Shown: positions 1,693 through 22,256 of the stretch, piece after piece | Position numbering within the stretch: the first letter of the stretch is position 1 | Layout: each line of letters opens with the position of its first letter | NCBI GenBank assembly: GCA_020850595.1 | Contig: JADZEK010000147.1 | Coordinates: 124,001-188,000, forward strand | Source of the DNA: Anaerolineales bacterium | GTDB taxonomy: Bacteria > Chloroflexota > Anaerolineae > Anaerolineales > UBA6663 | DNA: 64,000 bases | Reading direction: 5' to 3' | Position numbers and translations under genes: made by a program | The notes under the pieces: generated by a model | Database searches by the model: none | The model's input: only the letters and a program-made list of their open reading frames with translations | What the model was told of the DNA's origin: nothing

Positions 1693-4600
1693 CTATGGCG
1701 CGATGGTCAGCGGCGCGAATTTCATCAAGCGCTGGTTGCCGGGGTCGGCGACGTAGATGTCGCCGGCCGAGTCGAGGGCCAGGCCGCCCACCAGGGCGAA
1801 GCGTCCCGGCTCAACGCCGTAGTCACCCCAGGTAGTCAGGAACTTGCCGAACTGGTCGAAGACCAGCACGCGGTAGCCTTCGGGATCGGCGACGTAGACG
1901 CGCTTCTGACCATCCACCGCCAGGAACGGTTTGTTGTCGAGCGATTGGCCGTACCAGCCAACGACGGGCCACTCGCGCACGTAGAGGTAGGTGGCGTTGG
2001 CGGAGTCCCATTGGAAGACCTGCACGCGCTGGTTCCAAGTATCGGCCACGAAAACCGTGCCGTCAGCGGTCACAGCCACGCCCACCGGTTCGTCAAACTG
2101 GCCGGGGTCGCTGCCACCACCGCCAATGGTGTTCAGGCTGACACCGTTGGAGTCGAAGACGACGATGCGCTTGTTGCCGGTGTCGGCCACATAGACGCGG
2201 CCTTGTCCGTCCACGGCGATGCCGCGCGGCCCCCAGAAGGCGGCAGCGGTTTCACCTTGGCCGAACGTGCCCCACATGGTGAGGAAGTTGCCGTCGGCGT
2301 CGAACTTTTGCACGCGGTGGTTCCAGGTGTCGGTGACGTACAGCGAGCCATCCGGCCCGACGGCAACGCCCCACGGCTCGTTGAAGGCGCCGGGAGCGGC
2401 GGTGCCGGCGTCGAGGCTGCCGAACGCGCCCCAGGTGAGTAGCAGGTTGCCCTGGCTGTCGAACTTCTGGATGCGGTTGTTGCGCGAGTCGGCCACGTAC
2501 ACGGAGCCATCGGCCGCCACGGCCACGCCGCGCGGCGCGTTGAACTGGGCCTGACCGACGCCTTCGCTGCCCCAGAGCGTGATGGCCGCCAGGTCTTGCC
2601 GGGCGCCGATGTATGGGTCTTCGGGCGCGGCGTTACCTTCGAGCACGGTCGGGCCGACGCCGTAGGACCAGATTTGGCTGGCGACGTCCTTGCGGACGTA
2701 CAGGCGCATGCGCTCCGACACGGGCCACTCCGAGAGGTCGAAGTTGGTGGGCGGGTCGGTCAACTCGCCGTAGAGTTTGTAGTCGCGGTTGAACCAGATA
2801 TTCCACAGGGCCTGCCGCCACTGGGCGTTGCCGAGGGCGTAGCTGACGCGAGGCCAATCCAGGCTGAAGTAGCCCTGGTAGGGCCAGACCATGCGGATGT
2901 ACTCAAACATGTAGTAGCGGTCGCCCAGCAGCGCCTCGACCTTGCTCCAGTGCTTGGGGCCGGCGATGACGACGGGCGCGTCTACGCTCTCGCGCGTGGG
3001 CTGGTCGCCATAATAAGACTGGTTGATGAAGTCGCGGAAGTACCAGGTCATGGGCCAGGCGACATCGGAGTCGTAGGCGACCTTCAGGCCCAGGCCGTCC
3101 TCAATGCGGTAAGAGAGGTCTTCGATCTGGGTCATGACGGTCTTGACGCCGCGCGAAGCGTGGGCGTAGACCAGGAACTCGTTGGCGTAGTCGTAGTTGA
3201 TATAGGCGGCGATGAAGGCGGCGCGGGCGGTGAGCAGCGCCAGCAGCCCGAAAACCGACAGGCCGGCCAGCCGGAGCACATGGTGGAAGCCAAGCTGCAG
3301 CCCCAGGCCGTAGAGCGCCACCAGGCCGATGCCGGCCACGAGCGCCGAGGAGATGAACAGACCGGTAGCTTGCAGCTGGGCCAGATCGCTGCCCTGGAAG
3401 GGCGGGGTCTGTCCGAGCAGCGCCCCCAGGGCGGCGGCGAGGGCCACCACGGTGAGCGGGAGCAGCAGGGCCACCAGCCAGGCGCGGCGCTCGCGGAAGG
3501 CCGGCCAGTTGGCACCGTCTATTAGCTTGCCGATGGACCAGCCGGAGGCCAGGATGAGCGGCAGCGTGATGTGGGTGGTCAGCCAGGGCATCTTCTCGCC
3601 GGCGATACTGAAGGCGACCAGGGCGGCGACGGCCCAGAAGCCAAAGTAGCCGATGACGGGGAAGCGCAGCGGCTTCTCGGCGGGCGGCTCGACATCCGCC
3701 GTGTCATCTGCCGGGTCGCTGACGCGCAGCCACTGGCGCAGGCCGTAGTAGGCGGCCAGCAGCGCGCCGATGGCGGGCAGGAACTCGTAGAGGGGGATGT
3801 TGATGGCGGCGTAGTAGTACCAGGGCTGGTTGCCGCGCTGCACGCCGTGCTGCTCGAGCCAGTAGGCCAACGAGCCGATGAGACCCGTGGCGAGGCCGGC
3901 GCCGTTGGTAAAGAAGGTGGTGAAGAGCGTGACAAAGAGGCTGTAGAAGATGGCGGCGCAGATCAGGAACGTGCGCGTGTCCCACAGCAGGCCCAGCGCC
4001 AAGGTGAGGCCGAGGAGCACGAGGCAGGTGAAGATCGTAAAACCCGCGTCGGTGTAGAACAGGAACTGAAACAGGCCGACACCGCTGGGGAGGGTGTAGC
4101 TAAGACCGGTGAAGTTCTGACCAATCAGCCGGCCCCACAAGCGCACTGGAAACGCGGTGAGCTGCGGCAGGACGAACAGGCCGAAGATCATGAGCACGTC
4201 GAAGGCGGCGAAGCGGCGCAGGCCGCCCCGGAACTCGGCCAGGGCGAAGCCGCAGACGCCCAGGAGCGCGACGGCCCCGATCCCCAGCGCCAGGCGCACG
4301 CCCTGCTGACCGGGCGTCAGCGGCGCAGGCGCGGCGGTGGTCGCCGCGGCCTCGGGGTCGGCAGGCACGGCCGTGGCGGTGCCGGTGGCGGCAGGTTTCT
4401 CGAAGGCTTGCAGGCCGGCGGCGGCCACGCCCGCCAGCAGCAGCAGCATGAGCGCGAACAGAAAGCCGCGGCGGAAATCGGCGCGTTGCCAGCGCACGGC
4501 GAGCAACTCGCGCACGAGGTGCAGGCCGAGGAACAGCATGGAAATGGCCACGTAAATGAACGAGGCTTCCATGGTGGCATACAGCAGGGCTGTGACGGCC

Positions 4601-5142
4601 GTCAGCCAATAGAGATACTTGGCGGCGCGGGTTTCCAAGTAGCGCAGCACGCAGAGCGCGATGAGCAGGCCCCAGACGACCATGTACGGCTCGTCGCGGA
4701 TGTAGCGCGAGTAGTAGAGCATGTAGGGCGAGATGAGCATCAGCCCCGCCGCAACCAGCGCACCGGCGCGGCCGAGCCACTGGCGGAAGAAGTAGAGGAG
4801 CGCGATGGCGACCACGCCCAGGAGCGAGGTGGCGATGCGGGCGGTGAAGTCGTTGTCGCCGAACAGCCAGTAGGTGAAGGCGGTGACCTCGAAGCGCAGC
4901 ACGCCGTGCATCAGCGGTGAGTGCTGAAAGCCGCGGCCTTGAAAGAGGTACCAGGCGTACTCGGTGTGCAGGCTTTCGTCGTGGCTCATGGCCCGCGCGC
5001 CGAGGTCGTAGAAGCGGGTGATGAACCCGGCCACGATCAGCAGCGCGTAGAGCACCTTCTCCCACGTCAGCGCCAGAGCGGCCGCCAGCGGGCGGTCGAG
5101 CAGCGAGGGGGCGGGCGGGCTTTCCAGGGTGGTGGTCGCCAT
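1693..5142 (-). CDS. Agl23/TIGR03663-like membrane glycosyltransferase (GT39-type) with C-terminal NHL-repeat beta-propeller
   Basis: N-term MATTTLES...DLGARAMSHDESLHTEYAWYLFQGRGFQHSPLMHGVLRF plus many TM helices; C-term repeated NHL blades (GSVYVADSRNNRIQKFDSQG.., GSLYVTDTWNHRVQKFD..). Confidence 0.85.
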   Translation of the reverse strand: MATTTLESPPAPSLLDRPLAAALALTWEKVLYALLIVAGFITRFYDLGARAMSHDESLHTEYAWYLFQGRGFQHSPLMHGVLRFEVTAFTYWLFGDNDFTARIATSLLGVVAIALLYFFRQWLGRAGALVAAGLMLISPYMLYYSRYIRDEPYMVVWGLLIALCVLRYLETRAAKYLYWLTAVTALLYATMEASFIYVAISMLFLGLHLVRELLAVRWQRADFRRGFLFALMLLLLAGVAAAGLQAFEKPAATGTATAVPADPEAAATTAAPAPLTPGQQGVRLALGIGAVALLGVCGFALAEFRGGLRRFAAFDVLMIFGLFVLPQLTAFPVRLWGRLIGQNFTGLSYTLPSGVGLFQFLFYTDAGFTIFTCLVLLGLTLALGLLWDTRTFLICAAIFYSLFVTLFTTFFTNGAGLATGLIGSLAYWLEQHGVQRGNQPWYYYAAINIPLYEFLPAIGALLAAYYGLRQWLRVSDPADDTADVEPPAEKPLRFPVIGYFGFWAVAALVAFSIAGEKMPWLTTHITLPLILASGWSIGKLIDGANWPAFRERRAWLVALLLPLTVVALAAALGALLGQTPPFQGSDLAQLQATGLFISSALVAGIGLVALYGLGLQLGFHHVLRLAGLSVFGLLALLTARAAFIAAYINYDYANEFLVYAHASRGVKTVMTQIEDLSYRIEDGLGLKVAYDSDVAWPMTWYFRDFINQSYYGDQPTRESVDAPVVIAGPKHWSKVEALLGDRYYMFEYIRMVWPYQGYFSLDWPRVSYALGNAQWRQALWNIWFNRDYKLYGELTDPPTNFDLSEWPVSERMRLYVRKDVASQIWSYGVGPTVLEGNAAPEDPYIGARQDLAAITLWGSEGVGQAQFNAPRGVAVAADGSVYVADSRNNRIQKFDSQGNLLLTWGAFGSLDAGTAAPGAFNEPWGVAVGPDGSLYVTDTWNHRVQKFDADGNFLTMWGTFGQGETAAAFWGPRGIAVDGQGRVYVADTGNKRIVVFDSNGVSLNTIGGGGSDPGQFDEPVGVAVTADGTVFVADTWNQRVQVFQWDSANATYLYVREWPVVGWYGQSLDNKPFLAVDGQKRVYVADPEGYRVLVFDQFGKFLTTWGDYGVEPGRFALVGGLALDSAGDIYVADPGNQRLMKFAPLTIAP

Positions 5143-5164
5143 AGTGGTGTCGGGTTCCTCAGAG

Positions 5165-5953
5165 CTATCTGTTACGACTGGGGCGAGGGCGGCCGGCGGG
5201 GCGCGGCGGGCGGCGGGTGGCGCGGGCCGGGGCAGGCACGGCTTTGGCCGGAGCGCGCAGGAGTTTGACCTCTTCGGGGCGCAGTTCGCGCCACTGGCCG
5301 AGCGCCAGGTCGCCGAGGGCCAGGCCGCCCATGCGCACGCGAATGAGGCGCTGCACGGGTAGGCCCAGCAGGCGGCCGATGTCGCGGATTTGGTGCTTGC
5401 GGCCCTCGTGCATGACGAGGCGCAGCCAGGCGCTGCCGTGGGCGCGGCCTTCGCGCTGCACCAGGGCCGGGGCGGTGCGACTGCCCTCGAGCATGACACC
5501 GCGCCGCCACGTTTCTAACTGGTCGGCGCGTGGCTCGCCGCGCACGAGCACGCGATATTCTTTCTCCGACTCGTAGCGGGGGTGCGTCAGGCGGTCGGTC
5601 AGCGCGCCATCGTTGGTCAGCAGGATCAAGCCTTCGCTGTCTATATCCAACCGGCCCACGGGGTAGAGGCGGCCGGGGAACGGCACCAGGTCGCGCACGG
5701 TCTGGCGGTCACCCTGCGCGGAGAGCGATGAAACTACGCCACGCGGCTTGTGCAGAAGGATGTAGATGAAGCGCTCAGGCGATTCCAGCGGTTCGCCGTC
5801 CACGGCGATGTGGTCACGACTGGGGTCGGCCTTCTGGCCGAGCGCAGCGCGCTTGCCGTTGACGGTGACGCGGCCTTGCTCGATGAGGTCTTCGCAACTG
5901 CGCCGCGAGCCAAGCCCGGCGCGGGCCATGAGTTTCTGGAGACGCTCTTCCAT
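5165..5953 (-). CDS. RluB/RsuA-family 23S/16S rRNA pseudouridine synthase
   Basis: MEERLQKLMARAGLGSRRSCEDLIEQGRVTVNGKRA (S4 domain), PVGRLDIDSEGLILLTNDGAL catalytic motif. Confidence 0.92.
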   Translation of the reverse strand: MEERLQKLMARAGLGSRRSCEDLIEQGRVTVNGKRAALGQKADPSRDHIAVDGEPLESPERFIYILLHKPRGVVSSLSAQGDRQTVRDLVPFPGRLYPVGRLDIDSEGLILLTNDGALTDRLTHPRYESEKEYRVLVRGEPRADQLETWRRGVMLEGSRTAPALVQREGRAHGSAWLRLVMHEGRKHQIRDIGRLLGLPVQRLIRVRMGGLALGDLALGQWRELRPEEVKLLRAPAKAVPAPARATRRPPRPAGRPRPSRNR

Positions 5954-5961
5954 GCGGCGGC

Positions 5962-6510
5962 CTAGGGCTTGGGCGTGGGGGCCGGGGCGGGGCCAAAGGG
6001 CGTGGCGACCGGGCCGGCGGCGAAGGCGGTCGTGGCAAGCGGCGCGGCGACCGAGGCATGGTGCGCGACGGCGGCAGCCTCCAGTTGGGGATCAGCCGCG
6101 CGCGGGGTGAGCGCCAGGCCGGCGGGCGTTTCGACCACGCCGGCCGTGACGGCCGGGCGCAGGCCAAATGACCCAGGCACGAGCGTGGCGGCGGTGAAGG
6201 CCACGGCCAGGAGGCTGACATAGAAGCTCAGGCGCGGCAGCGCGCGCGGCCAGGCCGGGCGCGGGGCGGCGGGGCGGACCGCGGTGACGCGCGCCCACAG
6301 GACGGGCCAGTCATGAGCAGGGTGACGCTCCAGAGGGCGCAGGGCGGCCGGCAGGGCGCGCAGGTTGTCGTGCAGTGTGGCGAGGTCGGCCGCAGCGGCA
6401 CGGCACGCGGGGCAAGCGGCCAGGTGCGCCTCGAGCGGCGCGGCGCGGTGCGCGCTGAGGCGGCCTTCGGCATAGGCCAAGAGATCGGGCTGGACGTGCC
6501 AGTTGGTCAC
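5962..6510 (-). CDS. anti-sigma factor, zf-HC2-like
   Basis: VTNWHVQPDLLAYAEGRLSAHRAAPLEAHLAACPACRAAAADL (HxxxCxxC) plus TM; GTG start overlaps sigma-factor stop (GTGA). Confidence 0.75.
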   Translation of the reverse strand: MTNWHVQPDLLAYAEGRLSAHRAAPLEAHLAACPACRAAAADLATLHDNLRALPAALRPLERHPAHDWPVLWARVTAVRPAAPRPAWPRALPRLSFYVSLLAVAFTAATLVPGSFGLRPAVTAGVVETPAGLALTPRAADPQLEAAAVAHHASVAAPLATTAFAAGPVATPFGPAPAPTPKP

Positions 6511-7109
6511 ACCCACTGCTCCGTCAGTTCGGATTCCGGCTCTACCCCCAGAGCGCGCAAGTGCACCCGCAGGGCCTGCAAGCCCTGGCGTGTGCGCGAC
6601 TCGGCGGTTTTGGGGTTGCAACCGAGGGTCGCGCCGATTTCTTTGTAGCGCAGTTCGAGCAGGTAGCGCAGGGCCACCGGCTCGCGCAGGCGGGGCGGCA
6701 GGGCTTGCAGGGCTTGCCACACCTGGGCACGGACGCCGCGGCGCTCGAGCACGCTCTCGATCAGGTGATCGGGCTGGCGGCGGCGATCATTGGCGGCGCG
6801 CTCGAGCGGCAGCAGGGCCAGCCACTTGCGGCGGCGCTTGTTGCGGCAGCGGCTGAGGGTGATGGTGTACAACCAGGTGGAAAAAGCGGAGCGAGCCGGG
6901 TCGTAGCGGCCGAGGTTGCGCAGCGCGTACACAAAGGCGTCCTGCGCCACTTCTTCGGCATCCTGGAGGTCGCTCAGCAGACCGAGCGCCAGGCGCAACA
7001 CGGCCGGGCTGAACTGGGCGTAGAGGGCGGCGCAGGCGGCTTCGTCGCCGGCGGCCCCCCGCGCCAGCCAGTCGGCCAGGTGCGCGGCGGGAGGAGAAGG
7101 GTCGGCCAT
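6507..7109 (-). CDS. RNA polymerase sigma-70 factor, ECF subfamily
   Basis: DLQDAEEVAQDAFVYALRNLGRYDPARSAFSTWLYTITLSRCRNKRRR; region 4 LRYLLELRYKEIGATLGCNPKTAESRTRQGLQALR. Confidence 0.9.
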   Translation of the reverse strand: MADPSPPAAHLADWLARGAAGDEAACAALYAQFSPAVLRLALGLLSDLQDAEEVAQDAFVYALRNLGRYDPARSAFSTWLYTITLSRCRNKRRRKWLALLPLERAANDRRRQPDHLIESVLERRGVRAQVWQALQALPPRLREPVALRYLLELRYKEIGATLGCNPKTAESRTRQGLQALRVHLRALGVEPESELTEQWV

Positions 7110-7216
7110 CAGGATGCGGTTTCCAGGGCGTTATACACCCAATGGGCACGAAAGGCGCGGACAGTCCTGCCAGTATCGCACAGTCAGCTTACGGCAGGCT
7201 TAAGGCGGCCACGGCG

Positions 7217-8614
7217 CTAACCCTTGAGCAGGCTGTCAGCGGTCGGCGCGGCCAGACCCGGCTCTGGCAGGCTGAGCGGCGGCAGGTCAGACAGCGAGGC
7301 GAGGCCAAAGTGCTGCATGAACTCGGGCGTCGTGGAGTAAAGCACGGGGCGGCCCGGCCCTTCGGCACGGCCGCCTTCTTCGACCAGGCCCTTGCTCAGC
7401 AAGTTCTTGATGACGCTATCCGAGTTTACGCCGCGCACGGCCTCGATTTGCGGCCGCGTGACGGGCTGCTGGTAGGCAATGATCGCCAACGTTTCCAGGG
7501 CGGCGCGGCTGAGGGGCGTGGCGGCGGCCAGGCCAAGGAAGCGCTCCACGCGGCCCGCGGCGGAGGGCGCGGTGGTGAGCTGCACTTTGTCGCGGAAGCG
7601 CTGCAAGCTCAGGCCGCGCGAGCGGTAACTTTCGGTCAGCGCGACCAAGGCGGCTTCGACTTCGCGCGGGTTGACCTCCAGGGCTTCGGCTAGCCGGGCA
7701 ACCGGGGTCGCGCCATCGGCGACGAACAGCAGCGCTTCCAACTGCGCTTCCAGGCTCAGCGGCACGACCTGGGTGAGGGCGGCCTCGTCCACCATTTGGA
7801 ACAAGGAGGGGAGGGCAACCGGGATGTCAGGGCCGGCCGCCGGCGCTGCTTCGGCCGACGGCTCTGGCGCGGGGACTGCTGTTTCGGGCGCCTGACCGCG
7901 CCGGGCGCGCTTACGGCCCTGGGCGGGGGCAGCGGCGGGCGGAGACGGCAAGCTGACGGGCGCGGCGGAGACGGCGCCTTCCGGCGCGGCGATCAGCACG
8001 TCTTCGGGCGCGCTTGCGACTACTGACGCCTCGGCCGTGGGTAAGGTTCCATCGGCCAGGGCTTGCAGCTCGGCGGCGGCCTCCTGGGCTAACTCAGGCG
8101 GTTCGACTTCAGGAGCGACGGCGGGGGTCTCCGGGCCGATGGCCTCGGCCAGGACAGCGGCGTCGGCATCGTCGCCGAACACGTCCACGACCTCCACGGT
8201 TGCGCCCGCGCCGCTCAAAAGCTCCAGCAGCGCGTCGGGGTCAGCGGATGGTTCGGCCTCCAGGAGGACAACGACGTCGCCTACTGTGCTATCGGCCTCG
8301 GGTTCGTGCGGGTCTTCGTCGTCATCATCGTCGTCGTCTGCTTCTTCATCTTCATCGTCGTCGTCATCATCAGCATCGTCGTCGTCGTCGTCATCATCAT
8401 CGACATCGTCATCGCCAAGGTCATCGGCGGCGCTGACAGCGAGTGCGGCGGGCGCAACCGGCGGCTCAGGCAAGGCTTCTGGCTCCGGGGCGGCGGGTTC
8501 AGGCTGAGGCTCGGCGGCAGGCGGCTCCGGCGCGGCGGGCGTGGCAGCAGGTTCAGGCGGCAGATCGCCGGGCAGCCAGGCGGGCATCCCTTCGGGTTGG
8601 GTCGAAGTGGGCAT
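7217..8614 (-). CDS. scpB: SMC-ScpA-ScpB complex subunit ScpB with ~280 aa acidic/Pro-Ala-rich N-terminal extension
   Basis: C-terminal core LSLEAQLEALLFVADGATPVARLAEALEVN...TLAIIAYQQPVTRPQIEAVRGVNSDSVIKNLLSKGLVEE typical ScpB; N-term contains DDDVDDDDDDDDDADDDDDDEDEEADDDDDDDEDP. Confidence 0.88.
   Translation of the reverse strand: MPTSTQPEGMPAWLPGDLPPEPAATPAAPEPPAAEPQPEPAAPEPEALPEPPVAPAALAVSAADDLGDDDVDDDDDDDDDADDDDDDEDEEADDDDDDDEDPHEPEADSTVGDVVVLLEAEPSADPDALLELLSGAGATVEVVDVFGDDADAAVLAEAIGPETPAVAPEVEPPELAQEAAAELQALADGTLPTAEASVVASAPEDVLIAAPEGAVSAAPVSLPSPPAAAPAQGRKRARRGQAPETAVPAPEPSAEAAPAAGPDIPVALPSLFQMVDEAALTQVVPLSLEAQLEALLFVADGATPVARLAEALEVNPREVEAALVALTESYRSRGLSLQRFRDKVQLTTAPSAAGRVERFLGLAAATPLSRAALETLAIIAYQQPVTRPQIEAVRGVNSDSVIKNLLSKGLVEEGGRAEGPGRPVLYSTTPEFMQHFGLASLSDLPPLSLPEPGLAAPTADSLLKG
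8313..8418. repeat. imperfect GTC/ATC trinucleotide repeat encoding the Asp/Glu tract of ScpB
   Basis: Run of gtcgtcatcatcgtcgtcg... between ~8313 and 8418. Confidence 0.85.
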
Positions 8615-8725
8615 GTTATAATTTTCGCGACGTAGGTCTCGTGAAGTAGATGATCGGTGGAAGGATGGGCGGGGCGGCTTTAGGCCTGCCAACGCCCAAC
8701 AGTTAGTGAGTGTGGAGGGTAAACA

Positions 8726-9307
8726 ATGAACCTTTCAATCCGCGCGCGGCTGCTGGCCGTCGCAACCGTTCTGAGTTTGGCCGGGCTGGCCTGCGGCTCG
8801 GGCCTTGGTGTCGGGGCGCCCACGGCCCCGGCTTCGCCCATCCCGATTTCGACCGAGGCCGCCGGGGAGTTCGAGAACCTGTGGGAGAATGCCCTGAAAA
8901 ACGCCGGCCCAAATGGCGAGGTGACCGTCGTCATGACCGAAGAGCAGGTGACGTCTTTTGTCGCCCTCAAGCTGGCAGAAGAGGCGGATAATCCCCTCAC
9001 GAACATCCAGATTTATCTCCGCGACGGCAAGATGACGCTCACCGGCGACGCCAAGCTGGGCGCGATCTCGGCTCCGGCCACGATTGCGATCAGCGTCACG
9101 GTAGATGCGACGGGCGACCTGGTGGCTGAGATCGAGGACGCCGATTTCGGACCGGTGCCGGTACCGCAGTCGGTGCTCGATCAACTCAATGAGAGCATCG
9201 CCCAATCTATCACCAACGAACTCTCGTTTGACGAGACGCAGGTGACGATCCAAAGTATCGCCATCGCGGACGGCAAGATGTCGTTCAGCGGCATCGTGAA
9301 CCAATAG
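8726..9307 (+). CDS. hypothetical lipoprotein
   Basis: MNLSIRARLLAVATVLSLAGLACGSG lipobox; RBS-like ggagg upstream. Confidence 0.75.
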   Translation: MNLSIRARLLAVATVLSLAGLACGSGLGVGAPTAPASPIPISTEAAGEFENLWENALKNAGPNGEVTVVMTEEQVTSFVALKLAEEADNPLTNIQIYLRDGKMTLTGDAKLGAISAPATIAISVTVDATGDLVAEIEDADFGPVPVPQSVLDQLNESIAQSITNELSFDETQVTIQSIAIADGKMSFSGIVNQ

Positions 9308-9352
9308 CCGGCGGCGCCCGACATTATACCATCGGCCTCCGGCCGGTCTGGC

Positions 9353-11056
9353 ATGCCGCGCGTCCGTCTCTGGTTTGACCTACGCCTGATCGCACGGCTG
9401 GCGGGCCGGCTGGTAGGCTATCTGACAATGGCGGCGCTGCTGGTCACGGGCTGTCGGCCCGTGATCAGCGCGCCGCCGACTGCGCCAAGCGCCATCCATC
9501 TGACGATTTTGGTGGACGGCGACGTGCAGACCTACAGTTTTGAGGCGGGGCTGACGGTCCGGGAGGCCGTCGCGACCGCCGGGATCACCCTGGGCGAGCT
9601 GGATCAGGTTTCGCCGGCGCCCTTCACCGTCATCAGCAACGGGCTGGCCATCGTCATTACGCGCGTCAGCGAACGGTTTGAGACCGAGACGGTGCAGATT
9701 CCATTCGCATCGGAGATCGTGCACAACGAGGGGCTGCCGGCGGGCGAGCGGCGCTTGCTGCAAGTGGGCCAGGTCGGCACCGAAGAGCTGACCTACCGCA
9801 CGGTGTTCGAGGACGGCGTGCAGGTGTCGCGCAGCGTGGTGCGGCGGGTGACGCTCACCAGCCCGGTGAGTGAGATCATCATGGTGGGGCAGCAGGGGTC
9901 GTTCACGCTGGTGCCCATCAGCGGCACGCTGGCCTACATCAACGGGCGCAACGCCTGGGTGATGCGCGGCAACTCAGGCCAGCGGCTGCCGCTGACGACC
10001 AGCGGCGACCTGGACGGGAAGGTGTTTGAGCTGTCGCCCGACGGCCGGTGGCTGCTGTTCTCGCGCGAGGTGACGGCCAGCAACGCCGGCAACTTCAACA
10101 CGCTCTGGATCGTCGCGACGACGCCGGTAACGACCACGCGCCCGACCACGACCACCACGCCGGCGCTGCCGTTTACGCTGCCGGTGTCGAACGCACTTTA
10201 CGCCGAGTGGTCGCCGATTGATGCGCGCACACTGATTTACAGCACGGCCGAGCGCATCAGCCGCGCACCGGGTTGGCAGGCCAACAACGATCTGTGGCTG
10301 CTGCGCTGGGCGCCGCGCGCCGGGAACCGGCAGACCTTTACGACCACGCAAATCCTCGACAGTTCGGCGGGCGGGCTGTATGGCTGGTGGGGCACGGGCT
10401 TTGCCTTCGCGCCCGACGGCCGCTCGCTGGCTTACAGCCGGGCCGACTCCATCGGCCTGCTGAGCTTCAGCTTCCGCAGCGCGCGCGCCATCACCGCCAC
10501 GGTGGTGATCTCGGAGTTGGTGCAGTTCACAGCCTATAACACGCACAGCGATTGGGCCTGGTACCCGCCGATGCGCTGGGCGCCGAACGGCACGGCGCTC
10601 TACACCATCACGCACGGCGGGCCGATTGGGCTGGAGGCGCCGGAGGACTCGCCGGCCTTCGACCTGGGCGCGGTGAGCGTGCCCAGCGGGCGGCAATACA
10701 CCCTCATTCCGCGCGCGGGAATGTTCGCCAACCCACAGCCATCACCGGAACGGGTGCTGCCCAGCGGCGAGGTGAGCTACCGCATCGCCTTCCTGCAAGC
10801 CACGGACCCGAACAACTCACCCTTCAGCAACTACCGGCTGGGGCTGATGGACCGCGACGGCAGCAACACGCGGTTTGTGTTTCCGCCCGAGGGCCAAAGC
10901 GGTCTAAGCCCGAACGAACAGATCGCCTGGTCGCCCAGCGGCGACCGGCTGGCCCTGATCTACCAGGGCAACGTGTGGGTGATTGACCCAGACACGGGCC
11001 TGAACCAACAACTGACCGGCGACGGGCTGAGCGCCGAGCCGCGCTGGTCGCAGTAA
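9353..11056 (+). CDS. DUF348/G5-domain lipoprotein with C-terminal TolB/PD40-like beta-propeller
   Basis: HLTILVDGDVQTYSFEAGLTVREAVATAGITLGELDQVSP (DUF348-like), LLQVGQVGTEELTYRTVFEDGVQVSRSVV (G5-like), then WSPSGDRLALIYQGNVWVID repeats. Confidence 0.7.
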   Translation: MPRVRLWFDLRLIARLAGRLVGYLTMAALLVTGCRPVISAPPTAPSAIHLTILVDGDVQTYSFEAGLTVREAVATAGITLGELDQVSPAPFTVISNGLAIVITRVSERFETETVQIPFASEIVHNEGLPAGERRLLQVGQVGTEELTYRTVFEDGVQVSRSVVRRVTLTSPVSEIIMVGQQGSFTLVPISGTLAYINGRNAWVMRGNSGQRLPLTTSGDLDGKVFELSPDGRWLLFSREVTASNAGNFNTLWIVATTPVTTTRPTTTTTPALPFTLPVSNALYAEWSPIDARTLIYSTAERISRAPGWQANNDLWLLRWAPRAGNRQTFTTTQILDSSAGGLYGWWGTGFAFAPDGRSLAYSRADSIGLLSFSFRSARAITATVVISELVQFTAYNTHSDWAWYPPMRWAPNGTALYTITHGGPIGLEAPEDSPAFDLGAVSVPSGRQYTLIPRAGMFANPQPSPERVLPSGEVSYRIAFLQATDPNNSPFSNYRLGLMDRDGSNTRFVFPPEGQSGLSPNEQIAWSPSGDRLALIYQGNVWVIDPDTGLNQQLTGDGLSAEPRWSQ

Positions 11057-16808: not shown

Positions 16809-17272
16809 TGACCGCGGCGCCCGCCGCCCGCAAAGAAGCCGGGCGCTTCGCCAAGTTCCTGGTCGTGGGGGCCATCGGGTTTGTGGTGGATGCGACGGTC
16901 TTCAACCTGCTGGTGCACGTTATCAACCTGCCCGTCATCATCGCGCAGGCATTTTCGTTCTGCGCGGCGCTGATCAGCAACTTCACGCTCAATCGCTACT
17001 GGACCTACCCCGACAGCCGCAGCAAGCGGATTCGGCATCAACTGCTGCAATTCGCCCTCATCAACGTGATTGGGTTGGGCATCCGCACCGGCGTGATCGT
17101 GCTTATCAACCAGCCGTATCACTTGCTGGTGGCCAACCAGCCCTTCGTAACGCTGAGCACCGACGGCGTGGAGTTCTTCGCGGGCAACATGATCCTGGCC
17201 ACGGCCGTGCTGGTGGTGCTGCTGTGGAACTTCTTTGTCAACCGGTATTGGACTTATAACGACGTCAGTTGA
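16796..17272 (+). CDS. GtrA family membrane protein
   Basis: RFAKFLVVGAIGFVVDATVFNLLVHV...SNFTLNRYWTYPDSR...NFFVNRYWTYND. Confidence 0.9.
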   Translation: MSRLMTAAPAARKEAGRFAKFLVVGAIGFVVDATVFNLLVHVINLPVIIAQAFSFCAALISNFTLNRYWTYPDSRSKRIRHQLLQFALINVIGLGIRTGVIVLINQPYHLLVANQPFVTLSTDGVEFFAGNMILATAVLVVLLWNFFVNRYWTYNDVS

Positions 17273-17277
17273 CGCCG

Positions 17278-18414
17278 ATGCGTATCGGCTTTGACGCCAC
17301 TTCCGCGGTGCGGCAAGGGGCCGGCATCGGGCGCATCACCCGCGAGCTGCTGCGGGCGCTGGCCCAGCGCGACGCGGCCCACAGCTACCGCCTGATCTAT
17401 GCCGCACCGCCCGGGGCGGCGGCCCAACCGCTGCCGCCCCTGGGCCGCAATTTTCATGTCCGCCGGCTGCCGTTCGACGACCTGTGGCTGGCCCGCGTGT
17501 GGCACCGCGCGCGGCTGCCGCTGCCGGTGAACCTGGTGACGGGCGGCATTGACCTGTTCCACGCGCCCGACTTCACGCTGCCGCCGGTACTCCCCGGCAC
17601 GCGCACGGTGCTGACGGTGCACGATCTGTCGTTCGTGCGCGACCCCGAGTCGGCCCTGCCGGTGCTGCGCCGATACCTCAACCAGGTGGTGCCCCGCTCG
17701 GTGCGGCGCGCCACGCACGTGCTGGCGGACTCGGAGGCCACGCGCAACGACCTAGCGGCGCTGTACGGCACGCCGCGCGAGAAGATCACGGTGCTGTACA
17801 GCGGCGTAAACGCAATGTTCCAGCCGGTGCGCGACGCCGACCGGCTGGCCGCGGTGCGGTTGCGCTACGGCATCGGCGCGGCCCCGTACGTGCTGGCGGT
17901 GAGCACGCTGCAACCGCGCAAGAACTACCCGCGTCTGATCCAGGCCCTCGCCCGCCAGCCAGACCCAAGCCTGCGGCTGGTGATCGTGGGCGGCAAAGGC
18001 TGGCTGTACGACGCGATCTTTGCCGAGGTGGGCCGCAGCGGGCTGGAGGGCCGGGTGATCTTCGCGGGCTTTGCCGCCGACGAGGACTTGCCGGCGCTGT
18101 ACTCCGGCGCACGCGTGGTGGCCTATCCCTCCACCTATGAGGGCTTCGGCCTACCCATCCTGGAAGGCTACGCCTGCGGCACGCCGGTGGTGACCTCGAC
18201 GGCCGCGTGCCTGCCGGAAGTGGCGGGCGGCGCGGCGCTGCTGGTGGATCCGCTGGACGTGGACGCTATCGCTACCGCGCTGCACCAGGCCGCCAGCGAC
18301 GAGACCTTGCGCGCCAGCCTGATCGCGCGCGGCTTCGAGCGCGTGCGCCCCTTCACCTGGGACAACGCGGCCAAGCAATTGTTGGAGGTGTACGGGGCCG
18401 TCGGAGGCAAGTGA
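17278..18414 (+). CDS. glycosyltransferase family 4 (group 1)
   Basis: MRIGFDATSAVRQGAGIGRITRELL...LPALYSGARVVAYPSTYEGFGLPILEGYACGTPVVTS. Confidence 0.93.
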   Translation: MRIGFDATSAVRQGAGIGRITRELLRALAQRDAAHSYRLIYAAPPGAAAQPLPPLGRNFHVRRLPFDDLWLARVWHRARLPLPVNLVTGGIDLFHAPDFTLPPVLPGTRTVLTVHDLSFVRDPESALPVLRRYLNQVVPRSVRRATHVLADSEATRNDLAALYGTPREKITVLYSGVNAMFQPVRDADRLAAVRLRYGIGAAPYVLAVSTLQPRKNYPRLIQALARQPDPSLRLVIVGGKGWLYDAIFAEVGRSGLEGRVIFAGFAADEDLPALYSGARVVAYPSTYEGFGLPILEGYACGTPVVTSTAACLPEVAGGAALLVDPLDVDAIATALHQAASDETLRASLIARGFERVRPFTWDNAAKQLLEVYGAVGGK

Positions 18415-18424
18415 TTTCTGATTG
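18325..18424 (+). repeat. direct repeat copy 1 (3' end of GT4 gene plus downstream gatttctgattg)
   Basis: 100 bp matching 22157-22256 with 4 mismatches. Confidence 0.95.
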
Positions 18425-18800
18425 GGGGAGAGCCATGTTCGACATTGCGCATGTCAGCGAAGCAGGATCGGTGAACACCGCGCCAACGCCCATAAGCAAT
18501 GGTCAAACAACCCCTACCAATCCATAGAGGTGATCACCAGATTAGGCACGCTGTGAGCGAGTTCGTGTTGATATACGTGGTAATCTCAAGTGACGTAAAC
18601 AGATAAGGTTAGGGATGATTTAGGTATTAATGACTACTGGTTTGGGATTGACTGTAGTGCAGGTCAATACTATTCTCATTGTAGCTCTTTGTAGCGCCCC
18701 ATGGGGGGGCCTCCACAATGCACATTCAATTAAGGACCGGGACAAGGCTTAGCTTGCGGAGTTAGTAGGCTTCGGCTGTCACTTCTGGGATTCAAAGTGA

Positions 18801-19376
18801 ATGGACACGCTAGCGGACTCCATTGCCGATACATCGGTCACTGTCATCCGATTCATTATAGGCTTTGTGCTCCTGGTATCTGGCCTGCTAAAACTTCGTG
18901 ACAAAAATCAGTTTCTATTCGCTGTATTGGGCTATGCGTTTTTGCCCCGAAAGCTTGGGGGAGTGATAGCTATGTGCCTCCCCTTTGTCGAACTAGGTGA
19001 AGGCGTCTTGCTCTTGAGCGGTTGGCAGATCCAAGTCTCTACTACTTGTGCTTTCGTTCTTCTGCTGCTTTTCTCGTGGGCGATGTCTATCAGTTTGGTA
19101 CAGGGTCGAAACCATTCGTGTGGCTGCTTTCACGCCCTTACGCCCATTAGGTGGCGATTGGTCTATAGAAATATAGCCATCATGGGCCTGCTTTTGATCG
19201 TACTCATGCACGGTGAACTCGGAGGAAGTAGACTAATAATCCCCAGCAACTCGCAAGACAGTCTGTCGTCACTATCAGTATTCAGCTACATCCTTGCGTT
19301 AACATGGCTCATAGCTATCCTAACAACGATCATCTTCCACAAAACCCTTAAGGTTGGAAAACCAACTGGCAATTGA
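18801..19376 (+). CDS. MauE/DoxX-like redox-associated membrane protein
   Basis: TM protein with IRFIIGFVLLVSGLLKLRD and QGRNHSCGCFHALTPIRWRLVYRN (CGCF...RN signature of MauE-type proteins). Confidence 0.75.
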   Translation: MDTLADSIADTSVTVIRFIIGFVLLVSGLLKLRDKNQFLFAVLGYAFLPRKLGGVIAMCLPFVELGEGVLLLSGWQIQVSTTCAFVLLLLFSWAMSISLVQGRNHSCGCFHALTPIRWRLVYRNIAIMGLLLIVLMHGELGGSRLIIPSNSQDSLSSLSVFSYILALTWLIAILTTIIFHKTLKVGKPTGN

Positions 19377-19628
19377 GCCAGTTTCGGGCCAAGCAATGAA
19401 AGGGGATATACGTCATGTCGAACAAGCACCTATCGCGCCGCGTATTCTTGGGTAGTTTCGCCAGAGCTACCGCTGCGGCCGTTCTGGCGAGTTTCGCAAG
19501 GCTATTTCCAGAGGCCGATGTCGCTCTCGCTGTCAAGGGGAGCATGGCCAAGCCCGTATCGGGTCAGGGACCCACTCCAATGGACCCCGGAGATCCTCGA
19601 GCCGTTGCCTTGAAATCTCTAGCGGAAG

Positions 19629-19636
19629 CACAATTG
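19629..19636. repeat. 8 bp target site duplication (left) cacaattg
   Basis: Identical to 20909-20916, directly abutting IS inverted repeats. Confidence 0.9.
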
Positions 19637-20908
19637 GGTAGTGTCCCTGTAACGTGGGAACACTGATTACCAAAGCGACTTGGGCGGCACGCGAAAGCTG
19701 AGCAGTTCGTCCATGGTCCACACATGATCCGTGAGTCCCGCCGCCATGGCCGGGGTGACCAGTTTCCATTTCTTGTACGATCCGGTGCGGCCTTTGGTTG
19801 GAAGGGCGCGCGGCAAACGTTGGCGCAGGCCGCGATGCGGAACGACGAAATGGTAGTAAGCAAACGCCAGGGTCAATTGGTGCTCCAAGTAGTCCGGGTC
19901 TTTCGAGAAGGCATTCACCTTGCGGCTCATTCGGCGCGAATGCTGACGCACCGTCAGGTTGTTGCGTTCCACCCCGTACGTATTGATGATCCGGCTGACG
20001 GGCGAGGCTTGCAGCGCGGCCTCAACCTGCTCGGTCGAGCCATACACAATCCGGGTGGTGACTTCCACGACCCGCCCGTTCTCGCGCTCCTTAACGACCA
20101 CGGCATAGCACAAGTCCGGCGGCGGGATGCGGCGCGGTTTAGGAAAACGGCCTCGGGCCCCATGGCGCGCGGGCTGCACCCACTGCCCATAGACCTCCAG
20201 CAGGGCGTCGGCATAGTGCGGCAACTCATCGCTGGTGAAGAACGGGATCTGCCCATCCGTAGCCGATTTCAGCCGAAAAACGAGCCGCCGGGCATGGGCC
20301 AGGGTGCGTTTGCCTATCACCCAGGCCGGCACCAGTTTGCACACCGGGCTGAAAGCAATCCACACCCAGGCATCGCCATAGACTTCGGCCAACTGCTCCA
20401 ACGGCGTCAGGTGCGCTTCCTTCTTGTAAATGAACGTCCACAACTCATCCAACTGGCACTCGGTCAAATGCAGATTACGAAAAAAGTAGCTCATCACGGC
20501 CTGGCCGTGTTGACCCAAGATCGGCAGCCAACGCTGGACCGTGTCTTTGTCGACTTCGATCAACCGGCCCGTGGCGCGAATACTGACGCCTTCTGCCAGC
20601 GCCTTCGCCCCACGACGATAGATGTTCAAATCGGTACGCACGCCCGCATAAGCGGTGCCAGTACTGGCCGAGATGACGACCCGACAGGCCTGGCATTGAA
20701 ACCGCGGCCCGGCCCGTTGCCAATCGTACCGCTTCAGCCGCGCGGCCGATCCGACTTTGCCGAACAAGACGCACCGGGGGTTCAGACAGCAGCATGTCGT
20801 GTAGTCCATCCAGTAGCTCCTCGACCCATTGCCTCGGGTCGAGGATACTGGCTGTCAGCACCACCGGGCGCCTAATTCTGCGCCATTCCACGTTACAGGG
20901 ACACTACC
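19637..20908 (-). mobile_element. IS1-family-like insertion sequence, ~1272 bp
   Basis: 21 bp perfect terminal inverted repeats GGTAGTGTCCCTGTAACGTGG (19637-19657 / 20888-20908), 8 bp TSD, single transposase ORF. Confidence 0.9.
19667..20809 (-). CDS. IS1-family-like transposase
   Basis: N-term Cys motif RFQCQACR, HTH-like IRATGRLIEVDKDTVQRWLPILG, DDE-like DELWTFIYKKE...; QHSRRMSRKVNAFSK...AFAYYHFVVPHRGLRQ. Confidence 0.85.
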   Translation of the reverse strand: MDYTTCCCLNPRCVLFGKVGSAARLKRYDWQRAGPRFQCQACRVVISASTGTAYAGVRTDLNIYRRGAKALAEGVSIRATGRLIEVDKDTVQRWLPILGQHGQAVMSYFFRNLHLTECQLDELWTFIYKKEAHLTPLEQLAEVYGDAWVWIAFSPVCKLVPAWVIGKRTLAHARRLVFRLKSATDGQIPFFTSDELPHYADALLEVYGQWVQPARHGARGRFPKPRRIPPPDLCYAVVVKERENGRVVEVTTRIVYGSTEQVEAALQASPVSRIINTYGVERNNLTVRQHSRRMSRKVNAFSKDPDYLEHQLTLAFAYYHFVVPHRGLRQRLPRALPTKGRTGSYKKWKLVTPAMAAGLTDHVWTMDELLSFRVPPKSLW

Positions 20909-20916
20909 CACAATTG
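20909..20916. repeat. 8 bp target site duplication (right) cacaattg
   Basis: Identical to 19629-19636. Confidence 0.9.
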
Positions 20917-21444
20917 GGGGTAGATTTCTTCGGTACGGACATCGATTGGGAACATCCATACTACCAAGGGGCAGTTTCGAGCGTCCACGGATCTCAGGAG
21001 GCCGTTGGTTTTGCATTTCGTACCTCAGCCACCGGACAAGCGCAGGTCCTCAGTGCGTCCCTCTTGAACAATCAACCTTCGCGGGCTGTGGTGGTCGCGT
21101 TTGACCCTGCTGGCCTGGTGCCAGGCCAAAAGTACACTGGGGAAATCACAGTGTATCGGCTGAATGGGAGCGTGATTCAGGTCATTGCAGCCAAGCATGG
21201 GGAGGTTGCGGCGCGTGCTAACCCGATCAAAGCTCCCGGTTTGGCGCGTCCCAACGCCTATTGTTATCCAGGGATTGACAGTTGCATCCAGGGTTGGTAT
21301 TCATCCTGTGCTCCGTACCTCCTACTCGGTACGACGCTCTACCTGATGTGTGTATCACTCGGTGTTGGGGCGTGCTATGCGCAGTACTGTTACTGAGTAC
21401 AAAGTCTCAGCCACGGGCGATTAATGCTGTTGCCCCCTTACGTA

Positions 21445-21486
21445 GACTGGACAGATGCCCAGCATTCACCGGGCATCTGTCCAGTC
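21445..21486. terminator. strong hairpin, 16 bp perfect stem, 10 nt loop
   Basis: gactggacagatgccc-agcattcacc-gggcatctgtccagtc downstream of the Tat gene; no clear T-tract. Confidence 0.55.
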
Positions 21487-21593
21487 GTGTCTATCGGCTC
21501 GCTGATTGCTCACACATGCCGCCCATGGCAAGACATTCCGGAACTTGAAATTCGCGGGGTGCTATCGTAAGAAAACGACTGAGGTTTTCATCA

Positions 21594-22046
21594 GTGAACA
21601 TCGGAGGCAAGATGAGGGCGAGTAAATCCAGCAAGTTTATCTTCAAGGATGAGTCAGCAGCGAGCCGCGTAATAGTAGAGTTGCTGACTAGATTGTCCAA
21701 GTTTCCGGATCCCCGCCCCTGGGGATGGGCTATCGTCCTGCTAGTGTTTATTTTTGCTCTTCGTTCTGCATTATCGGGCCAATACTCGGCAGAAGATTCA
21801 CTAAAACAAGTTTCCTTACTATGCTACGCGTTGGCGATTGCAAGCACAGAGCCGAGATTTCGATGGCCTTACATACTTGCAAGACCATTAGCAGTCGTCA
21901 TGTTGGTGATTGGTTTCATCTTCATGATTCTCTGGATCGTGTCAACCCCCTTGAACCCTTCATTCGATTTCCTCTCATTGAGCTTAGTGTTTATCCTGAC
22001 TCTGCGGGATGTCAGCCGCACTTTCATGTTCCGGCATACGCCTTAA
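21594..22046 (+). CDS. hypothetical small multi-TM membrane protein
   Basis: 150 aa ORF with hydrophobic segments AIVLLVFIFALRSAL, PLAVVMLVIGFIFMILWIV, FLSLSLVFILTL; in lower-GC island; GTG or internal ATG start. Confidence 0.5.
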   Translation: MNIGGKMRASKSSKFIFKDESAASRVIVELLTRLSKFPDPRPWGWAIVLLVFIFALRSALSGQYSAEDSLKQVSLLCYALAIASTEPRFRWPYILARPLAVVMLVIGFIFMILWIVSTPLNPSFDFLSLSLVFILTLRDVSRTFMFRHTP

Positions 22047-22156
22047 GGTGGCTTGGTCTAAGTAGCTGATCTGTGTGAGCCCACCCTAGTTGCAGTCTAG
22101 AGCTATAGCATACCCCGCTCCAGCTATTACAGCCTGCCTCGATCACTCAAAAGGAT

Positions 22157-22256
22157 GCGCGCGGCTTCGAGCGCGTGCGCCCGTTCACGTGGGACAACGC
22201 CGCCAAGCAATTGTTGGAGGTGTACGAGGCCGTCGGAGGCAAGTGATTTCTGATTG
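22157..22256 (+). repeat. direct repeat copy 2 (relic of GT4 3' end)
   Basis: gcgcgcggcttcgagcgcgtgcgcccgttcacg...gtcggaggcaagtgatttctgattg, 96/100 identical to 18325-18424. Confidence 0.95.

Follow-up and report, generated by a model that had tools for sequence, protein, structure and literature searches.

An IS-interrupted gene for a Tat-exported precursor with a cysteine-rich tail, beside a MauE-family gene in a Chloroflexota genome

To our knowledge, MauE is known almost solely from methylamine dehydrogenase, the light chain of which is exported by the Tat route; the genes follow one another in the order mauE, mauD (a redoxin) and mauA (mauEDA). MauE has been proposed to form the disulfides of the Cys-rich light chain (restated in PMC7794033). 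A link between mauE and Cys-rich precursors was noted earlier in Streptomyces, where a survey in PLoS Biology in 2020 drew attention to candidate RiPP precursors, rich in Cys, that are encoded next to mauE (PMC7794033). A third system of relevance is halocin C8, which is made as a Tat-exported precursor of 283 residues that gives rise to an immunity part, HalI, and a peptide of 76 residues (PMC11509114).

Here we describe a locus within a window of 64,000 nucleotides (the whole stretch of DNA that was analysed) from an Anaerolineales bacterium of the phylum Chloroflexota. Akin to the Streptomyces candidates, it has a mauE homologue next to a Cys-rich precursor and no other mau genes. Those candidates, however, are actinobacterial and carry at least eight Cys, whereas the window precursor, from Chloroflexota, has a Tat signal, a middle domain of about 150 residues and six Cys, so that the combination used in that survey (mauE plus a precursor with at least eight Cys; PMC7794033) is present here in its first half only; related precursors described below do reach such numbers (12 in L175, L174 and L095; 20 in L080).

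An interrupted precursor gene in a foreign-looking island

The precursor gene lies on the forward strand in two parts (19415..19636 and 20911..21396) that share one frame and are separated by an IS1-like element. Direct reading of the sequence gives 74 codons before the element and 159 after the second copy of its target-site duplication, and the claim of a first-pass annotation of this DNA, that excision of the element with one 8-bp duplication restores a single frame of 233 codons, agrees with our reading in both count and frame. The N-terminal part carries the Tat signal (MSNKHLSRRVFLGS..., with the motif SRRVFLG) and the start of the pro-region, and its ATG at 19415 is preceded by the Shine-Dalgarno-like AAGGGG; the C-terminal part comprises a beta-rich middle domain and finishes in the tail AYCYPGIDSCIQGWYSSCAPYLLLGTTLYLMCVSLGVGACYAQYCY (21256..21393, forward strand), which is mostly hydrophobic and contains six Cys. 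Both the Tat motif and the six Cys had been reported by that annotation and are indeed present, while the tail that it quoted is 46 residues long rather than 45.

The element itself (19637..20908; a single copy in the genome) has perfect inverted ends, GGTAGTGTCCCTGTAACGTGG and CCACGTTACAGGGACACTACC, and is flanked by the 8-bp duplication CACAATTG (19629..19636 and 20909..20916). It encodes on the reverse strand a transposase of 380 aa (19667..20809) that matches Pfam DDE_Tnp_IS1 over the cut-off (3.5e-9) and NCBIfam transpos_IS1 under that model's cut-off (5.7e-21). The element has the IS1 transposase domain, the inverted ends and a duplication within the 8-9 bp of the IS1 family, but departs from other members in the single-frame 380-aa transposase and in its score beneath the NCBIfam IS1 cut-off.

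Upstream of the precursor by 38 bp, and on the same strand, is the gene for a MauE-family membrane protein of 191 aa with a CGCF motif (18801..19376; PF07291 E 1.8e-24, 86.9 bits against a cut-off of 27). The host genome has one further MauE match, which is weaker. The split precursor gene is more than a chance alignment of two open frames, as attested by the perfect inverted ends, the duplication, the transposase, the Shine-Dalgarno-like site and the same-strand MauE gene 38 bp upstream. The earlier proposal that an IS has inactivated a precursor exported by the Tat route, with a C-terminal peptide that is probably rich in disulfides, is supported. The first-pass annotation had not remarked on the adjoining MauE gene, nor on the low-GC island with the repeat that flanks it.

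This foreign-looking island is a cassette (18425..22156) behind a glycosyltransferase gene (17269-18414), with a GC content of 0.511 (IS left out) versus 0.695 and 0.704 in the flanking 5-kb stretches. It is bounded by a 100-bp direct repeat: the left copy (18325..18424, forward strand) is the 3' end of the glycosyltransferase gene, and the right copy (22157..22256, forward strand) is 96% identical to it, three of the four differences being silent third-position changes, as if the second copy derived from another allele. The gap between the glycosyltransferase gene and the downstream gene is 88 bp in two relatives (G004 and G007) and 37 bp in a third (G008), versus about 4 kb here. The low GC, the bounding repeat and the empty site in relatives argue that the genes for MauE, the precursor and a membrane protein of 150 aa came in together as a cassette, which was probably acquired horizontally. 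This last gene (21594..22046, forward strand) specifies two strong hydrophobic stretches, has no significant match in Pfam or NCBIfam, and could possibly encode an immunity protein; within the cassette we found neither a transporter nor a protease gene, and no gene recognised as conferring immunity. That a low-GC cassette in which no recombinase gene is present should be framed by two copies of a glycosyltransferase 3' end would represent, in its own right, a mode of small-island insertion.

MauE and Tat-exported Cys-rich proteins across the phylum

Homologues of the window MauE were found in 55 of 400 genomes of the phylum. We compared 60 MauE regions (866 kb) with 20 control regions of 20 kb (400 kb) from the same genome set. 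An ORF was scored if it combined a Tat motif anchored at the start with a hydrophobic stretch and had six or more Cys close to its C-terminus. Twenty-six such ORFs are spread over 22 of the 60 MauE regions versus none in the 20 controls (Fisher p 9e-4), and 23 of them lie no more than 2 kb from MauE although that distance takes in just 30% of the sequence (binomial p 1e-9), p values that are indicative since the loci are not fully independent (the L095 and L096 precursors are 96% identical, and those of L084 and L131 are near-identical too). All 26 share the strand of MauE.

With MauE next to the precursor, and with Tat-exported Cys-rich proteins tied to MauE across the phylum, disulfide formation in the window tail becomes much likelier than the first-pass annotation could know. 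Judged from gene context, MauE is the probable disulfide-forming partner of the precursor, and the precursor very probably a MauE-oxidised, disulfide-rich exported protein. The adjacency and the pattern across the phylum also weigh against the view that the Cys-rich C-terminus is a chance feature of an ordinary exported protein, which we consider very unlikely even though a tail under low constraint could yield six Cys in 46 residues and orthologues were not found.

One of the clients, at L103, is a homologue of the methylamine dehydrogenase light chain (PF02975, 3.2e-9), which we take to be an experimentally known kind of MauE client; the remaining clients examined belong to no recognised family apart from their Tat signal. 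Where 0.6-1 kb separates MauE from the Cys-rich gene, a redoxin sits between them in most examined loci, and all eight intervening genes tested match AhpC/TSA, redoxin or thioredoxin, some of them weakly, in an order (MauE, redoxin, Cys-rich gene) that resembles mauEDA. Since MauE clients include an enzyme subunit, MauE by itself does not imply a bacteriocin. The mauEDA-like order and the PF02975 client are what would be expected if the window product had no antagonistic role and were a disulfide-rich subunit, oxidised by MauE, of an electron carrier or of an enzyme in the periplasm or at the cell surface. As in mauE-mauD-mauA, the MauE-family gene of the window does adjoin a same-strand gene for a Tat-exported disulfide-rich protein (the setting in which the true PF02975 homologue of L103 is also found), but the cassette contains neither a redoxin gene nor a dehydrogenase or other partner enzyme gene, PF02975 is matched by neither half of the window protein in Pfam, and the client, of 233 codons, is laid out in an unrelated way and ends in a mostly hydrophobic tail with six Cys. 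The patchy distribution and the great diversity of the tails are, in addition, better explained by antagonism, and we regard an enzyme subunit or electron carrier as unlikely.

At L103 (9218-9643) the PF02975 homologue lies by MauE and a redoxin, with a second MauE and another Tat Cys-rich gene about 7 kb off, and L130 (4068-12877) has three Tat Cys-rich genes (14-16 Cys) near two MauE homologues in one region. Outside the phylum, a small Cys-rich ORF is immediately ahead of the MauE gene in Embleya hyalina (L177:4488-4832), an arrangement that agrees with the Streptomyces candidates (PMC7794033).

Long precursors, the tail and halocin C8

Six loci, the window included, combine a Tat signal, a middle of about 150 residues and a Cys-rich tail beside MauE; the tail has 12 Cys at L076/L174, L077/L175, L095 and L096, 20 at L080 and six in the window. 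No redoxin lies between MauE and the precursor at these loci. Within the six-protein set, the Tat signal region of the window precursor resembles that of L080 (phmmer 5e-4 to 1e-3), and its middle domain is colinear with those of L077/L175 (E 6e-4) and L080 (1e-2); the similarity of the middle domains is weak (20-29% identity) and suggestive of homology. A profile built from the middle domain retrieved its own three members only. The tails themselves could not be aligned above shuffle level, the near-identical L095/L096 pair excepted, and a common tail family was dropped from consideration for this reason. The intact orthologues that the first-pass annotation had proposed to seek in related genomes were not recovered: with the two halves used separately for database searches, the C-terminal half had no close orthologue in 100 relatives, GTDB species genomes, viral contigs or plasmids, and its matches at the level of the phylum were weak, with E values at chance expectation.

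The L095 locus (4265-9538) has the appearance of a bacteriocin-like operon with a Tat precursor: the precursor with its 12-Cys tail is followed by MauE, a membrane protein of 112 aa, an ABC ATPase (7.6e-31), a large membrane protein that is likely a permease, and a redoxin (1.9e-15). L096 also has an ABC ATPase, while a motif search revealed none near the window, L076, L077 or L080. The L174 gene (5594-6235) has an in-frame TAG directly after the Tat signal, reflecting a pseudogene, recoding or an assembly error. With the window and L174, two of the six long precursors appear inactive, which fits the expectation for dispensable, contested genes.

AlphaFold2 modelling from an alignment of three sequences gave low overall confidence (49), and the models are of low confidence everywhere but in the tail, where blocks reach a pLDDT of 72-86 and form two helices, which span residues 122-138 and 141-159 in the numbering of the C-terminal half. 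The six Cys are spaced 6-7-13-7-4, and in the predicted helical hairpin Cys 125/155 and Cys 133/147 lie opposite one another on the two sides of the turn, the residue numbers of each pair adding up to 280 (278 for Cys 118/160); Cys placed at random give an equally regular ladder in about 2-6% of cases. The hairpin model and the register of the Cys pairs suggest that the tail is probably stapled by nested disulfides (1-6, 2-5 and 3-4). The same hydrophobic hairpin could be taken for a membrane anchor that tethers the beta-rich middle domain, its Cys serving stability only. Yet related layouts have tails with 12-20 Cys instead of plain transmembrane hairpins, and the association with MauE predicts oxidised Cys outside the membrane, such that we consider an anchor improbable. 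A Foldseek search with the low-confidence model gave no significant match.

In light of its architecture, kinship of the precursor with halocin C8 had been suggested. The window precursor does have the Tat signal, pro-region (HalI in halocin C8) and hydrophobic C-terminal Cys-rich peptide of that system, and its spacing run 7-13-7 recurs in one of three halocin C8-like proteins, from Haloferax (shuffle p 0.0045, post hoc). Kinship is nonetheless supported neither by the profile nor by the tail. The C-terminal half does not match TIGR04449 at E up to 10, no match to this model was found in the host genome (G000), and a search for the halocin C8 domain across the phylum gave nothing over the cut-off. 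Compared with real halocin C8-like genes from haloarchaeal plasmids (three loci), the tail is no more similar than shuffled sequence (p 0.71-0.79) and has six Cys in 46 residues, where a halocin peptide of about 76 residues has ten, conserved in their spacing (2-7-3-7-12/13-7-8-8-6/7 in the halocin relatives); no MauE is annotated at the three loci. That the protein truly belongs to the halocin C8 family, as a bacterial member, is in our view extremely unlikely, while by analogy the precursor may work in a similar manner, through Tat export, a pro-region and a disulfide-locked hydrophobic peptide. The tail has no significant match in NCBIfam and Pfam, fulvocin C-related models included insofar as these libraries contain one.

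A candidate secreted peptide and its proposed oxidant

Taken together, the data are best explained by a cassette that would have encoded a secreted, disulfide-locked peptide along with its oxidant. The precursor would be exported by the Tat route, MauE, as a relative of membrane thiol-oxidoreductases, would drive formation of the three disulfides of the tail, and the tail would adopt a short hydrophobic helical hairpin, probably with the nested pairing described above. Proteolysis would then release the tail from the pro-region, and the freed tail would act on the envelope of competing bacteria, the producer being shielded by the pro-region or by the downstream 150-aa membrane protein. Horizontal acquisition of the cassette would have come first and inactivation by the IS1-like element later. 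Whether the product is indeed an antagonistic, bacteriocin-like secreted peptide we judge to be evenly balanced. On the opposing side stand the failure to find an orthologue of the tail or a sequence common to the long-precursor tails, the absence from the cassette of transporter, protease and recognised immunity genes, the enzyme subunit among the MauE clients, the weak similarity of the middle domains and the low model confidence outside the tail.

Bacterial disulfide peptides are mostly regarded as being exported unfolded and then oxidised by Dsb-type systems. That MauE recurs beside Tat-exported peptides whose sequences differ widely points to a dedicated oxidation route. A literature search for the extent and the Tat dependence of the mauE link in this phylum, and for the long-precursor form, found no description. 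It is conceivable, and we put it forward tentatively, that the window precursor is one member of a large class, as yet undescribed, of disulfide peptides in Chloroflexota that depend on MauE and are exported by the Tat route, in which one oxidation module serves extremely diverse peptides that spread as small cassettes, some of them behind a pro-domain that inactivates the peptide or gives immunity. MauE would thereby gain a general role beyond methylamine dehydrogenase, and its pairing with such genes would offer a genomic handle on disulfide peptides that cannot be assigned to a family by sequence. Should the long precursors prove to be bacteriocins, they would constitute a Tat-exported, disulfide-locked group outside the haloarchaea with a defined oxidant.
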